From contig NZ_UNRC01000004.1 in NCBI RefSeq assembly GCF_900537065.1, positions 62,001 through 126,000 on the forward strand: a DNA stretch of 64,000 nt, written 5' to 3'. Below the pieces are notes generated by a model. The model was given only the letters and a program-made list of their open reading frames with translations. It did not search any database and was not told where the DNA came from. Both the position numbers and the translations under genes were made by a program. Origin of the DNA: Sphingorhabdus sp. Alg239-R122. GTDB lineage: Bacteria; Pseudomonadota; Alphaproteobacteria; Sphingomonadales; Sphingomonadaceae. How positions within the stretch are numbered: position 1 is the first letter of the stretch; each line of letters begins with the position of its first letter. Positions 52,756-57,660 of the stretch are shown in pieces.

Positions 52756-52926
52756 CTAAGTCCGCCTTCGCACTTGCAACAATTTTAAAATGCAATGGCG
52801 GATGATACCGCGTGGGTCAAGAAAGCTTGGTGATAAATCTGCGATTCTTTCATGCCGGCATGCTTTTTAATGCGTCCATATGAAGGGCAAAAAGACCTTT
52901 TTGAAAATTTTTTCGCTATTTAAACA

Positions 52927-53021
52927 TGACATTAAGTCATTTAACCATGTCATTTAGTCAGGTGTTGTTGACATAGTCAGCGAATCAAGACATAAAGTAA
53001 GGGAAGCATGACATTGTGTCA
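52927..53021. repeat. Phased array of five TGAC-N5-GTCA palindromes upstream of urcA
   Basis: Copies: 52927-52939 TGACATTAAGTCA, 52948-52960 TGTCATTTAGTCA, 52969-52979 TGACATAGTCA, 52988-53000 AGACATAAAGTAA (degenerate) and 53009-53021 TGACATTGTGTCA. Centres fall near 52933, 52954, 52974, 52994 and 53015, i.e. every 20-21 bases (two helical turns, same face). The rest of the 328-base gap (52756-53083) shows nothing else clear. It is a likely cooperative operator for the genes to the right. Confidence 0.8.
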
Positions 53022-53083
53022 GTTTCAAGTTACATACCTCCCACCCCACAGGGACAATTTGAACCGTTTGAAAGGAATAAATC

Positions 53084-53425
53084 ATGTTTAAGAAAACCGC
53101 CTTTACCATCGCCGCCGCATGCATGGCTGTATCACCAGCTATGGTTGCTGCGCAAACCAATGACACAGTCAGCGTAACTGTACAGACCAATGACCTTGAT
53201 CTCGCCAATGCCAAAGACCGTTCGCGTCTGGATTTCCGTATCAAATCGGCAGCCCGGAAGATTTGCGGAGAAAATGCAAGTCGTTCAATTGCTGCATCAA
53301 AAATCCATAAAGAATGCATTGCACAGGTTGTTTCAAATGCCCAACCCACGGTTGAATTGGCCGTTTCCAAAGCTGCTACACGAGTTGCACTGAACAGTTA
53401 TGCGACGCGTCCAGCCAATGGGTAA
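53084..53425 (+). CDS. UrcA family protein
   Basis: 113 residues preceded by AAGGA. A signal peptide ends MVAAQT. The UrcA pattern follows: VSVTVQTNDLDLANAKDRSRLDFRIKSAARKICGEN, a second Cys in HKECIAQVV and a helical end (AVSKAATRVAL). UrcA proteins are small exported proteins common in sphingomonads and related groups, without known function. The gene lies right behind the five-palindrome array, which suggests strong regulation. Confidence 0.9.
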   Translation: MFKKTAFTIAAACMAVSPAMVAAQTNDTVSVTVQTNDLDLANAKDRSRLDFRIKSAARKICGENASRSIAASKIHKECIAQVVSNAQPTVELAVSKAATRVALNSYATRPANG

Positions 53426-53440: not shown

Positions 53441-53460
53441 GGGGCGGCATAGTCCGCCCC
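53441..53460 (+). terminator. GC-rich hairpin after urcA
   Basis: GGGGCGG (53441-53447) and CCGCCCC (53454-53460) form a 7-bp stem with a 6-base loop. There is no T-run, so it may be a weak or partial terminator or an mRNA 3' end stabiliser. Confidence 0.5.
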
Positions 53461-53534
53461 ACTAGCATTGCAAAGTGAGTATAATGCAGTCATGCACAGC
53501 GGAAAAGCAGGTTACAGATTTAAGAGGTGTCTCA

Positions 53535-53954
53535 ATGGCCAGAAGTTCTTATCGATACACGACTACAAAACTGGATATTCTATTCGCATTTCTTGCACCG
53601 GTAAGCATCTTCCTGTTTGCTGATGGACCGCCGAAAAATGCAGAAATCCCTCCTGTTTTTGGCCAATATGTTATGGCGGCGATAGGTATAGGTGCAACCC
53701 TTCTGTTCAGCTTAATTGCCACGAAGGCTGCCGACCTGGACCGAAGGTGCGCTGAAGAATATGCCTTTCAGATGCTTGCCAACGCTGCGGTTATCGCAGT
53801 CATAACAACGATGTTCACCCATGTTATCTGGGATATGAGCGTTCTTAATGACATGGGATTGCCCAAGCCATCTTCAGGCCAAATCATTGGTGTTCTCGTG
53901 CTCAGCTGGGCCGCAGGCTATGCCATCTACAGAATCCGCGGAATCAAATCATGA
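53535..53954 (+). CDS. Four-helix membrane protein beside an XRE regulator (DUF2178-like)
   Basis: 139 residues from ATG 53535; the frame opens earlier at 53475. Hydrophobic segments lie at about 14-29, 42-62, 80-97 and 110-128. Between helices 2 and 3 is AADLDRRCAEEYAFQ, which echoes the [MV]DE[LQ]E loop of the three downstream membrane proteins. Its stop overlaps the XRE gene start as ATGA. Such small membrane proteins are commonly coupled to short XRE regulators. Function unknown. Confidence 0.75.
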   Translation: MARSSYRYTTTKLDILFAFLAPVSIFLFADGPPKNAEIPPVFGQYVMAAIGIGATLLFSLIATKAADLDRRCAEEYAFQMLANAAVIAVITTMFTHVIWDMSVLNDMGLPKPSSGQIIGVLVLSWAAGYAIYRIRGIKS

Positions 53955-54154
53955 AGAACCGCCTCAAAGTCCTGCGTGCGGAACGCGACTGGTCACAGGC
54001 GGAACTCGCCGGACGGCTGGATGTTTCCCGTCAGGCAGTGAATGCCATCGAGACCGGGAAATACGACCCCTCGCTTCCCCTCGCCTTTAAAATCGGCCGC
54101 CTGTTCAGCCAACCCATCGAAGAGATTTTCGATGACGAATTTGATGGAGAATAA
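53951..54154 (+). CDS. Short XRE-type HTH regulator (YozG-like)
   Basis: 67 residues forming a bare HTH: MKNRLKVLRAERDWSQAELAGRLDVSRQAVNAIETGKYDPSLPLAFKIGRLFSQPIEEIFD. There is no ligand domain. It overlaps the preceding gene by ATGA and is followed one base after its stop by the next membrane protein gene, so all should be co-expressed. It is the candidate binder of the palindrome array at 52927-53021. Confidence 0.93.
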   Translation: MKNRLKVLRAERDWSQAELAGRLDVSRQAVNAIETGKYDPSLPLAFKIGRLFSQPIEEIFDDEFDGE

Positions 54155-54155
54155 C

Positions 54156-54599
54156 ATGACAGATCAAAGACCAGGGTATGGCGAAGAGAAAGAAAAGGCA
54201 AGTAAACGTCAGTTTAACAATGCTTTAGCTATATCGGCCATCATTGGCATCATTATAGCCGCCGCGCTGAAATATGCGCAGGGCGACAGTGGCAGTATAT
54301 TCACTGCATCGCCGGATACAATGTCCATAAGCCCGGCCCTGGCTATCGGCCTCACAATATTGGTGCTAGCCGGCTTCATCGTATTTCCAGTGCTTGGTCT
54401 ATTCAGGATGGACGAATTGGAACGCGGTCATAATGTCAATGCAAGTGCACTGGCTGGCCTTTATGGTATCACGGCTTTCCCGGCATGGCATCTGCTCTCG
54501 CTCGGAGGCCTCCTGCCGGCTCCAACAGCGGTAGGATTGTTCCTGATAATCTTTTGCGGTGGTTTTCTCTCTTACCTTTTCCTCAAGTACCGCCATTAG
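54156..54599 (+). CDS. DELER-type membrane protein, copy 1
   Basis: 147 residues with four hydrophobic helices and a hydrophilic N-terminus. A conserved loop MDELER at 85-90 follows helix 2. The end GGLLPAPTAVGLFLIIFCGGFLSYLFLKYRH is nearly superposable on the gene at 55144. Same length and same motif position show tandem duplication. No known domain is recognised. Confidence 0.85.
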   Translation: MTDQRPGYGEEKEKASKRQFNNALAISAIIGIIIAAALKYAQGDSGSIFTASPDTMSISPALAIGLTILVLAGFIVFPVLGLFRMDELERGHNVNASALAGLYGITAFPAWHLLSLGGLLPAPTAVGLFLIIFCGGFLSYLFLKYRH

Positions 54600-54642: not shown

Positions 54643-55107
54643 ATGACCGATACATCAAAAACACAATCACCTGCAAAAACACCCATGTCACCGCGCGCAA
54701 AAAAATACTGGCTCAGTCTTATCGCTGCTAGTGCGCTTGGCCTGATTGGCGGTTTTCTAATCTACCCGATCGGGTATGAGCTGGGCCGGGCTGCAGGTTC
54801 AGGCGAAATGCCGGCCGGAAGCTGGTTCGAGGCTCCGATCGATTCCACCACGGCAGTTATCATTGCCCTTATCTGGGGCGTAGCCCTGCCACTGCTGTGC
54901 ATTCTTTATCACAAGAATGTTGATGAGCAGGAAGAGCACGCTTTTCTGTGGGCCGGACTTATCGGCTGGTACGCCATGGTGATCATTGCACCGGTTTGGT
55001 GGGTGCTCGCCTGGGCTGGCATCTGGCCAGAAGCACATGTCATGGGTATTTTTGCAATAGGCATGATTGTAAATGCCATCGTCTTTTCCTGGAAAAAATT
55101 CCACTAA
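54643..55107 (+). CDS. DELER-related membrane protein, divergent copy
   Basis: 154 residues with four hydrophobic segments. The loop after helix 2 reads VDEQEEHAF (93-101) instead of DELER, and the last part (PVWWVLAWAGIWPEAHVMGIFAIGMIVNAIVF) aligns in pattern with the flanking copies (GGLLPxPTA). It is the more diverged member of the family, placed between the two near-identical-length copies. Confidence 0.8.
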   Translation: MTDTSKTQSPAKTPMSPRAKKYWLSLIAASALGLIGGFLIYPIGYELGRAAGSGEMPAGSWFEAPIDSTTAVIIALIWGVALPLLCILYHKNVDEQEEHAFLWAGLIGWYAMVIIAPVWWVLAWAGIWPEAHVMGIFAIGMIVNAIVFSWKKFH

Positions 55108-55143: not shown

Positions 55144-55587
55144 ATGAACGATACTGACAAAAATTACGGTGAGCAAAAAGTTAAGAATCAAAACCGCAAA
55201 ATGTTGAAGATGGTAGCTTTTTCACTCGTTATCGGAGGCGTTATCGGCACGCTTCTTAGGAATATTGATGGCGGTGCTGTTAATTTGCTCACAGGCAATA
55301 CCGAGAATATCTCACTGAATCCACTCACCGCTATCCTCGTTGCAGCAGCAATATTTATCGGCCTGATTGGTTTCCCACTTTATTCGCTGCGTCATGTCGA
55401 CGAACTGGAGCGGCGTATCAATATCAACGCCACCGCTATTTCAGGACTGGCAGTGCTCGGAGCTTTTCCAGTTTGGTTGCTGCTCGCCATTGGCGGACTG
55501 CTTCCCCACCCCACTGCTTATGGAATGTTTCTGATCGCCATGGCATCAGGTTTCGTATCCTATCTGTGGCTTAAATTTCGCCCATAA
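55144..55587 (+). CDS. DELER-type membrane protein, copy 2
   Basis: 147 residues, identical in length to the product at 54156. VDELER falls at 85-90 as in copy 1, followed by ININATAISGLAVLGAFPVWLLLAIGGLLPHPTAYGMFLIAMASGFVSYLWLKFRP. The preceding TAAAGGATTGG provides a ribosome site. The GumN/TraB gene lies 46 bases downstream on the same strand. Confidence 0.85.
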   Translation: MNDTDKNYGEQKVKNQNRKMLKMVAFSLVIGGVIGTLLRNIDGGAVNLLTGNTENISLNPLTAILVAAAIFIGLIGFPLYSLRHVDELERRININATAISGLAVLGAFPVWLLLAIGGLLPHPTAYGMFLIAMASGFVSYLWLKFRP

Positions 55588-55633: not shown

Positions 55634-56572
55634 ATGAAGAAACTACTGCTTAATACCGCACTTGGCGCACTTACTCTTGGCATCGTCAGCGTTGCATCGC
55701 CCACGATGAATACAGCGCTGGCCCAGGAAGCGGCCGCACCGGCCGCCACCGAAGATACAAAAACTGTCGACGTTGATCCCGCATTGTGGGTCGTCAAGGA
55801 CGAAGACACCACCATTTACATGTTCGGTACGGTGCACTTCTTACGTCCGGGGCTCAGCTGGTTTGACGAAGCTGTCAAAACCTCTTTTGACCAGTCAGAC
55901 GAGCTTGTTGTTGAGATTTTATCTCCTGACGGCCCTGATGCGCAGCAGATGGTCATGCAACTGGCGACCGACACAAGCGGAACTTCACTACGCGACAAGC
56001 TGGAGAGCGAAGATCGGGCTGCATATGAAGCCGCGATGAAAAAACTCGGGTTACCGGAACAGGCATTTGACCAGTTCAAACCGTGGTTCGCGTCTCTTAA
56101 TCTGGGCCTGCTGCCAGCGCTAAAAAGCGGCTATAATCCGAACAGTGGTGCAGATAAAATCTTGATCACCAAAGCCAAAGAATCAGGTAAGAAGCTGAGC
56201 GAGCTGGAAACTGTTGCATTCCAGATGAACATGCTGGCAGGCAGCAATATAGAGGACCAGATCAAAGGCTTGAACTACACCGTGCAGAATGTCGACAAGG
56301 CCGTCCCTACGATCGATGGTATGGTGACAGCATGGAGCGAAGGTAAACCTGATGACCTTGCCGAGATAATGAATGCCAACATATTGAATGGTAGAATGTA
56401 TGACACTTTCCTGACCCGCCGCAATGCCGCGTGGTCACGCTGGATTGATGAACGGCTTGACCAGCCGGGCACAGTGTTCATCGCTGTCGGCGCGGGCCAC
56501 CTGGCCGGTGATGGGAGTGTGCAGGAACAGCTGAAACTACGCGGTATCGATACTGCCCGTATCAACTATTAA
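55634..56572 (+). CDS. TraB/GumN family protein, copy 1
   Basis: 312 residues preceded by AAGGAGAA. A signal peptide ends ALAQEA. The family motif YMFGTVHFLRPGLSW (first GxxH) and the C-terminal [19 protein letters not shown] (GxxH repeat) are present, with conserved ELxxIE-like Glu residues between. TraB/GumN proteins are putative metalloproteases related to Tiki. The gene follows the membrane protein cassette and precedes a strong terminator at 56630. Confidence 0.9.
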   Translation: MKKLLLNTALGALTLGIVSVASPTMNTALAQEAAAPAATEDTKTVDVDPALWVVKDEDTTIYMFGTVHFLRPGLSWFDEAVKTSFDQSDELVVEILSPDGPDAQQMVMQLATDTSGTSLRDKLESEDRAAYEAAMKKLGLPEQAFDQFKPWFASLNLGLLPALKSGYNPNSGADKILITKAKESGKKLSELETVAFQMNMLAGSNIEDQIKGLNYTVQNVDKAVPTIDGMVTAWSEGKPDDLAEIMNANILNGRMYDTFLTRRNAAWSRWIDERLDQPGTVFIAVGAGHLAGDGSVQEQLKLRGIDTARINY

Positions 56573-56629
56573 AATGCATAGTACACAGATTTGAAGCAGA
56601 CGCTCCCCAAGCAATTCTGTTTCAATAGG

Positions 56630-56661
56630 GGGCCGGGAGTAGCCAAGGCTGCTTCCGGCCC
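56630..56661 (+). terminator. Terminator after the first GumN gene
   Basis: A 15-bp stem (GGGCCGG...AGCC at 56630-56644 with GGCT...CCGGCCC at 56647-56661) closes a 2-base loop. The trailing TTGCTGTTATT is only moderately T-rich. Confidence 0.7.
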
Positions 56662-56739
56662 TTGCTGTTATTAAGTGTGTCTCCTGTCAGCTCAGAGACT
56701 CTATTTTCAAGGCAGTTTCCATTCAAGCCGTAACGCATT

Positions 56740-57660
56740 ATGGTCATGGCTATGCTACATAGATTGATCCTACCAATTTTTACGGCTGTCTTTCTTACCG
56801 CATGCGGCCAGAGTGCCAATACAGCGCCGGTGGATATCGTGCAGCCCGACGACCCCAGCCCTGCGCTTTGGGAAATAAGCAGCAAGGGGCAACCTTCTTA
56901 TCTGTTCGGCACAGTGCATATCTTGCCCGAAAACATCGCGTGGCAGGACAATGTTGTGGATGCTGCAATTGCCCGTGCAGACCATCTGATCCTGGAGCTT
57001 GATCCTGCCGAAACGCCGGAGAGGATTGGTGACATATTCACCGTTATGGCAACCACGCCAGGCCAACCGCCGCTAAAAAACCGCATTGATACAGATTTGC
57101 ATGATGAAGCCGCAGACATCATGCAGGAATACAGCCTGCCTGCATCCCTTTTTGCCAATGTGGAAAGCTGGGGCGCAGCGTTAATGATATCATCGAGCCT
57201 TTCAGGCAAAACCGGTGCGCGCGGCGAATTTGGCGTGGAAGAAATATTGACCAGCGCTTTCAGGAAAAATGGCAGGCATATTTCCGGCCTGGAAAGCGCC
57301 ACACAGCAATTTGGCTATTTCGATGGACTTTCTGAAAGCGATCAGCGCGCCATGCTGGAAGCCGTGATTGACGGTGCAGACGAGTCTGCTGCCAATTACA
57401 AACGCCTGCTCGAAAGCTGGCTTACAGGCGATACGAAAATGCTGGAAACTATTCTGGCACAAGGTTTTGACAGTCGTCCATCCATTCGCAAAGCCGTAGT
57501 TACGGCCCGCAACCGGGACTGGGCAGAGCAGATTGCGGGTAAATTGGAAAGCGGCGGCAGTATATATTTTATTGCTGTGGGCGCAGGTCATTTTACCGGG
57601 CCTGACAGCCTGCAGAAGCTGCTCACTGAAAAAGGATATACAGTGAAACGCCTGCAATAG
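56740..57660 (+). CDS. TraB/GumN family lipoprotein, copy 2
   Basis: About 306 residues from ATG 56740; ATG 56752 ([18 protein letters not shown]) is an equally plausible start. The lipobox LTAC makes it a lipoprotein. Motifs match copy 1: [28 protein letters not shown] and the closing [19 protein letters not shown]. It is separated from copy 1 by a terminator, so it may be expressed on its own. The two paralogues differ in localisation: one soluble, one lipid-anchored. Confidence 0.9.

Follow-up and report, generated by a model that had tools for sequence, protein, structure and literature searches.

A likely autoregulatory operator array in front of a CylR2-like XRE, membrane-protein and TraB/GumN operon in Sphingorhabdus

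We analysed a 64,000-nucleotide stretch of the genome of Sphingorhabdus sp. Alg239-R122 (the window), in which a row of short inverted repeats stands in front of a run of genes: a urcA-family gene, four genes for small membrane proteins with three to four hydrophobic segments each, a 67-residue XRE regulator among them, and two TraB/GumN-type genes (Table 1). The two TraB/GumN-type proteins, encoded at 55634-57660 and with hydrophobic N-termini, end the operon in nearly all relatives. Just past the urcA stop is a GC-rich hairpin (53443-53465; GGGGCGGCATAGTCCGCCCC) that is not followed by a T run and could attenuate transcription into mem1 and xre. Phage and defence libraries returned only generic helix-turn-helix matches.

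The XRE protein belongs to the HTH_3 family (PF01381; 49.1 bits against a cut-off of 23) and is 46% identical to CylR2. Its predicted structure, good when modelled from aligned sequences and poor from the single sequence, has the five helices and short terminal strands of a CylR2-like short XRE protein. Its closest folds are DR_2454 (Z 13.6, 0.8 Å over 64 residues) and CylR2 (Z 13.1, 1.1 Å over 65 residues), and the PlcR-DNA structure 3u3w is also among the fold matches.

All five TGAC-type inverted repeats that a first-pass annotation had described, one degenerate and one perfect, are present at 52927-53021, phased as it claimed, with centres at 52933, 52954, 52974, 52994 and 53015 and steps of 21, 20, 20 and 21 bp. 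The array extends further, to 53034, where a GTCA at 53018 pairs with a TTAC at 53030. Each pair of neighbouring half-sites also admits an outward reading, as GTCA-N8-TGAC, with a constant spacer of eight bases against inward gaps of 5, 5, 3, 5 and 5. Read outward, the array consists of five candidate operators of the form TGTMA-N8-TKACA, O1 to O5, spanning 52935-53034 with centres 21, 19, 21 and 21 bp apart.

Table 1. Features of the repeat array and of the operon behind it, in window positions.
Feature	Position	Strand	Remarks
Orphan TGAC half-site	52927-52930	+	left end of array
Inward repeat 1	52927		TGACATTAAGTCA
Inward repeat 2	52948		TGTCATTTAGTCA, one mismatch
Inward repeat 3	52969		TGACATAGTCA, N3 gap
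Inward repeat 4	52988		AGACATAAAGTAA, degenerate
Inward repeat 5	53009		TGACATTGTGTCA, perfect 5+5
O1	52935-52952	+	AGTCA-N8-TGTCA, 8/10 to consensus; weaker or a half-site outside the genus
O2	52956-52973	+	AGTCA-GGTGTTGT-TGACA; the probable -35, an invariant TTGACA (52968-52973), forms its right half
O3	52975-52992	+	AGTCA-GCGAATCA-AGACA; relatives usually have CGAC as right half; conserved GCGAATC core
Possible -10	52993-52998	+	TAAAGT (TATAGT in most relatives), 19 bp from TTGACA
O4	52996-53013	+	AGTAA-GGGAAGCA-TGACA; relatives GTMAGG...CCTKAC; over likely start site
O5	53017-53034	+	TGTCA-N8-TTACA; sole exact TGTMA-N8-TKACA in window
urcA-family gene	53084-53425	+	optional first cargo; TIGR04433, 62.7 bits against a cut-off of 25
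mem1	53535-53954	+	small membrane protein with about 3 hydrophobic segments; xre starts inside it
xre	53951-54154	+	67-aa CylR2-like XRE regulator, putative array binder
mem2	54156-54599	+	small membrane protein
mem3	54643-55107	+	small membrane protein
mem4	55144-55587	+	small membrane protein, mem2 paralogue (42%)
TraB/PrgY/GumN family protein 1	55634-56572	+	hydrophobic, signal-like N-terminus
TraB/GumN-like protein 2	56740-57660	+	tblastn match to protein 1

The array is conserved well beyond the genus. Of 118 relatives, 23 from 21 genera carry its core (TTGACATNGTCAGCGAATCNNGACATNNNGT, up to three mismatches) in exactly one copy each, with no occurrence in the reversed control; the possibility raised at first pass that the repeats are equally frequent elsewhere is not borne out, the core not being repeated in those genomes. 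Together with one genome in which the core itself is degenerate (G028) these give 24 arrays, which align without gaps from O2 to O4. All 24 have an XRE orthologue (79-100% identity) downstream on the same strand with TraB/GumN genes next, and the array in these relatives is phased and free of indels. The two same-genus genomes (G001 and G002) keep the array nearly unchanged, with the same spacing, immediately before mem1 and an xre whose product is 99% identical to that of 53951; the conserved block is flanked by diverged sequence, and urcA is absent. In two other genomes (G003 and G068) xre lies directly behind the array, about 50-60 bp after its centre.

Scanning named genomes for the core gave at least 117 stretches, including Sphingopyxis, Erythrobacter, Qipengyuania, Porphyrobacter, Novosphingobium, Blastomonas and Croceicoccus, and 80 loci were read among these listed matches. 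An XRE gene follows in 70 of the 80, at 41-2655 bp, and in the remaining 10 the sequence ends within 102-1306 bp; all 70 loci with enough downstream sequence, among the at least 117 listed, therefore have one. Divergent glyQ lies upstream in 76 of these same 80. The left half of O2 and the right half of O4, both outside the search pattern, are each kept in 78 of the 80 (again among at least 117 listed); positions fixed by the pattern inflate conservation at their own columns and are unusable as conservation evidence for these loci.

Because both same-genus genomes keep the array without urcA, it belongs to the XRE operon and not to urcA, in front of which it had at first been described; urcA as owner was rejected on its absence there. 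A urcA gene follows the array in 5 of the 24 relatives' arrays, in two of them (G008 and G017) behind the same promoter core, and a urcA-family gene is directly behind it in 31 of the 80 named loci (among at least 117 matches listed). Upstream of other urcA homologues the inward TGAC motif was not seen. urcA is a variable cargo, and these comparisons suggest its gain and loss. Some of the urcA copies behind arrays share leader sequence (G008, G017 and G090), and the second urcA-family gene of the Alg239-R122 genome (contig 15, 28898-29173, L027) has no array.

The middle palindrome of the first-pass annotation holds the TTGACA at 52968-52973, invariant in 24 of 24 genomes, which is probably a -35 element. 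TATAGT (here TAAAGT) is a possible -10 element with a 19-bp spacer. A strict sigma-70 scan found no site, and a -10 candidate that is off consensus or 19 bp distant counts against this placement; a promoter elsewhere has little room in genomes where only 41-55 bp separate the array centre from the start of xre (15 of the 80 named loci read, among at least 117 listed). Against the operator reading also count the weakness of O1 and O5 in many relatives and the right half of O3, which is rarely TKAC (2 of the 80 loci read among at least 117 listed).

Inside O3, the block GCGAATC (52980-52986) has columns identical in 21-24 of 24 genomes, above the spacers of O2 or O4, and half-sites do not explain this conservation. 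It may be that a second factor uses the block besides XRE, which would be compatible with an XRE operator array. We consider this unlikely: there is no candidate for such a factor, and the block may instead reflect promoter geometry or an asymmetric contact in O3.

Repression is likelier than activation because O2 holds the probable -35, and O3 and O4 cover the putative -10 and start. The same XRE protein on the same array could nevertheless be an activator, or an activator or repressor depending on the site, by bringing RNA polymerase to a weak promoter with its long spacer. A perfect TTGACA combined with a poor -10 19 bp away, the failure to find a consensus promoter, and the position of O1 and O2 upstream of or at the -35 would suit such a role. 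Operators O2 to O4 over the -35, -10 and likely start are, on the other hand, the usual layout of a repressor, and in some genomes a mere 41-62 bp lie between the array centre and the start of xre, so that the promoter would lie under the operators; we regard activation as unlikely.

Most likely it is the outward TGTMA-N8-TKACA site that serves as the binding unit, with the inward palindromes as seams between neighbouring operators. Read as TGTCA-N8-TGACA, the window contains a chain of five sites, each matching at least 8 of 10 bases, against a maximum of two in 200 dinucleotide-shuffled windows. In the 24 arrays, pairs of GTCA to TGAC are commonest at an offset of 12, with 37 pairs; the two inward offsets have 22 and 19. 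The inward TGAC-N5-GTCA palindrome as the unit, the form in which the array was first described, draws on two of the five copies being exact at N5 and on the regular 20-21 bp steps. The middle gap, though, is N3 and is kept in relatives, and because of it the inward chain is unremarkable: the longest at 19-22 bp in the window has two members, which is also the usual length in shuffles. Nor is the inward spacing seen in paralogue promoters, where the outward N8 is the main peak, and we consider this unit quite improbable. What stands of the first description is a phased array for a dimeric regulator, for which the XRE protein would be the best candidate.

The N8 rule was prompted by the array together with two paralogue loci (L080 and L075), and both loci were left out of the test on 19 paralogous XRE upstream regions. 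Those regions hold 15 outward half-site pairs spaced 5-30 bp apart; 11 fall at N8, against a shuffled mean of 0.05, and none has the inward 3-base gap (5-mer half-sites). Both other XRE paralogues of the Alg239-R122 genome, on contig 10 (TGTCAATGCTACTTGACT, one mismatch) and contig 3 (TGTAAAGAGTTATTGACA), also have such a site. The motif, which could not initially be matched to a regulator, can therefore be placed, as the same kind of site precedes paralogous XRE operons. The third XRE gene of this genome, that on contig 3, has its own TGTAAAG/CTTTACA palindromes at L079:3100-3160 (GTAAAGAACTCTTTAC) around a TTGACA directly 5' of its start. Genome-wide, both TGACATNNAGTCA (21 matches with one mismatch, against 19 in the reversed control) and TGTCA-N8-TGACA (65 places with one mismatch, against 33) are too noisy for calling targets.

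Array-linked XRE proteins form one group on a small tree, whose 67 residues offer few columns and low resolution. Their recognition helix reads SRQA(V/I)N in 70 of 70 array-linked proteins from named genomes (among at least 117 matches listed), and that of the paralogues SRQS or SRQT. The bases inward of the array half-sites are mostly GG (O2-left in 73 and O4-right in 65 of 80 loci, among at least 117 listed), with O4-left and O3 less regular; paralogue half-sites are A-first in 22 of 22, with AG in 15. The TTGACA-bearing half-site keeps the A-first form, as a -35 would require. This co-variation of recognition helix and half-site is evidence, short of proof, for each XRE binding sites of its own.

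In Caulobacter, urcA is named for the uranium response and is controlled by UzcRS, UzcR binding CATTAC-N6-TTAA (reviewed in PMC8963506). No such site with up to two mismatches occurs on either strand of 52756-53083, so an UzcR/m_5 promoter was rejected and urcA here is probably under different control. That a different regulator, a metal-responsive two-component one such as UzcR, binds the array is very improbable despite the urcA-family first gene, as most arrays lack urcA and XRE is never missing where downstream sequence suffices. By inspection, an FNR/FixK-type TTGAC-N4-GTCAA spacing fits no unit, and the spacer between -35 and -10 is not palindromic as MerR-type binding would need.

Most likely, the small DNA-binding protein encoded downstream docks at this row of sites, which lies where its own gene cluster begins. 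We think it highly likely that a CylR2-like XRE/membrane-protein/TraB-GumN operon is here controlled by its own regulator through the array, in which O2 contains a -35-like TTGACA: operator sites stand at the front of the operon encoding their putative regulator, over the presumed promoter. The operon runs from the array through optional urcA and/or small membrane proteins to XRE, further small membrane proteins and two TraB/GumN genes, with glyQ divergent alongside. XRE dimers would bind TGTMA-N8-TKACA sites about two helical turns apart on one face of the DNA, perhaps cooperatively between neighbours, and would repress the operon, including xre itself. The membrane proteins of the operon would bring relief, in the way proposed for CylR1, and by this analogy these proteins may sense an envelope signal.

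We give even chances to a broader reading, in which this is an undescribed module found across the sphingomonad family: a CylR2-like XRE that works without a phosphorelay, membrane proteins as sensors, an envelope operon (UrcA, small membrane proteins and TraB/GumN), an array fixed at three to five operators, and one recognition-helix residue (Ala against Ser/Thr) separating it from the operators of its paralogues. The open-licence literature yielded no account of the array or operon, or of CylR2-like regulators and GumN/regulator operons in sphingomonads. Our analysis proposes an operator for tiny XRE regulators paired with membrane proteins, a motif usable for seeking their targets in other bacteria, and a pair of paralogues whose operator specificity seems to follow a single helix residue. 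UrcA, known from the Caulobacter uranium response and of unknown function, is here placed in a different, XRE-linked operon.

The locus resembles several known systems in part. As at the Caulobacter urcA promoter (m_5/UzcR), repeated regulatory sites precede a urcA-family gene, but the motif is unrelated and urcA is optional here. Lambda-type and PlcR-type XRE regulators are likewise dimeric HTH_3 proteins on inverted half-sites, lambda OR has adjacent operators over a promoter, and the half-sites of the PlcR box have the same 12-bp offset; here the half-site is different, there is no C-terminal effector domain, and there are up to five sites. Among solved structures the closest relative is that of Deinococcus radiodurans DR_2454 (PDB 9k3w), which aligns structurally at 0.8 Å with 69% identity over the aligned part, and for which we found no function or operator in the open-licence literature. 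The CylR1/CylR2 pair of the Enterococcus faecalis cytolysin is a further parallel: CylR2, a 66-residue XRE repressor with 46% identity and nearly the same fold, is encoded with a small membrane protein and acts at overlapping promoters, including that of its own genes, and relief of this repression is thought to go through the membrane protein CylR1 (PMC3709268). In contrast, the present operon is Gram-negative, with several membrane proteins, TraB/GumN, optional urcA, up to five operators and no lantibiotic; its membrane-protein genes adjoin xre, a likeness to CylR1 in position.
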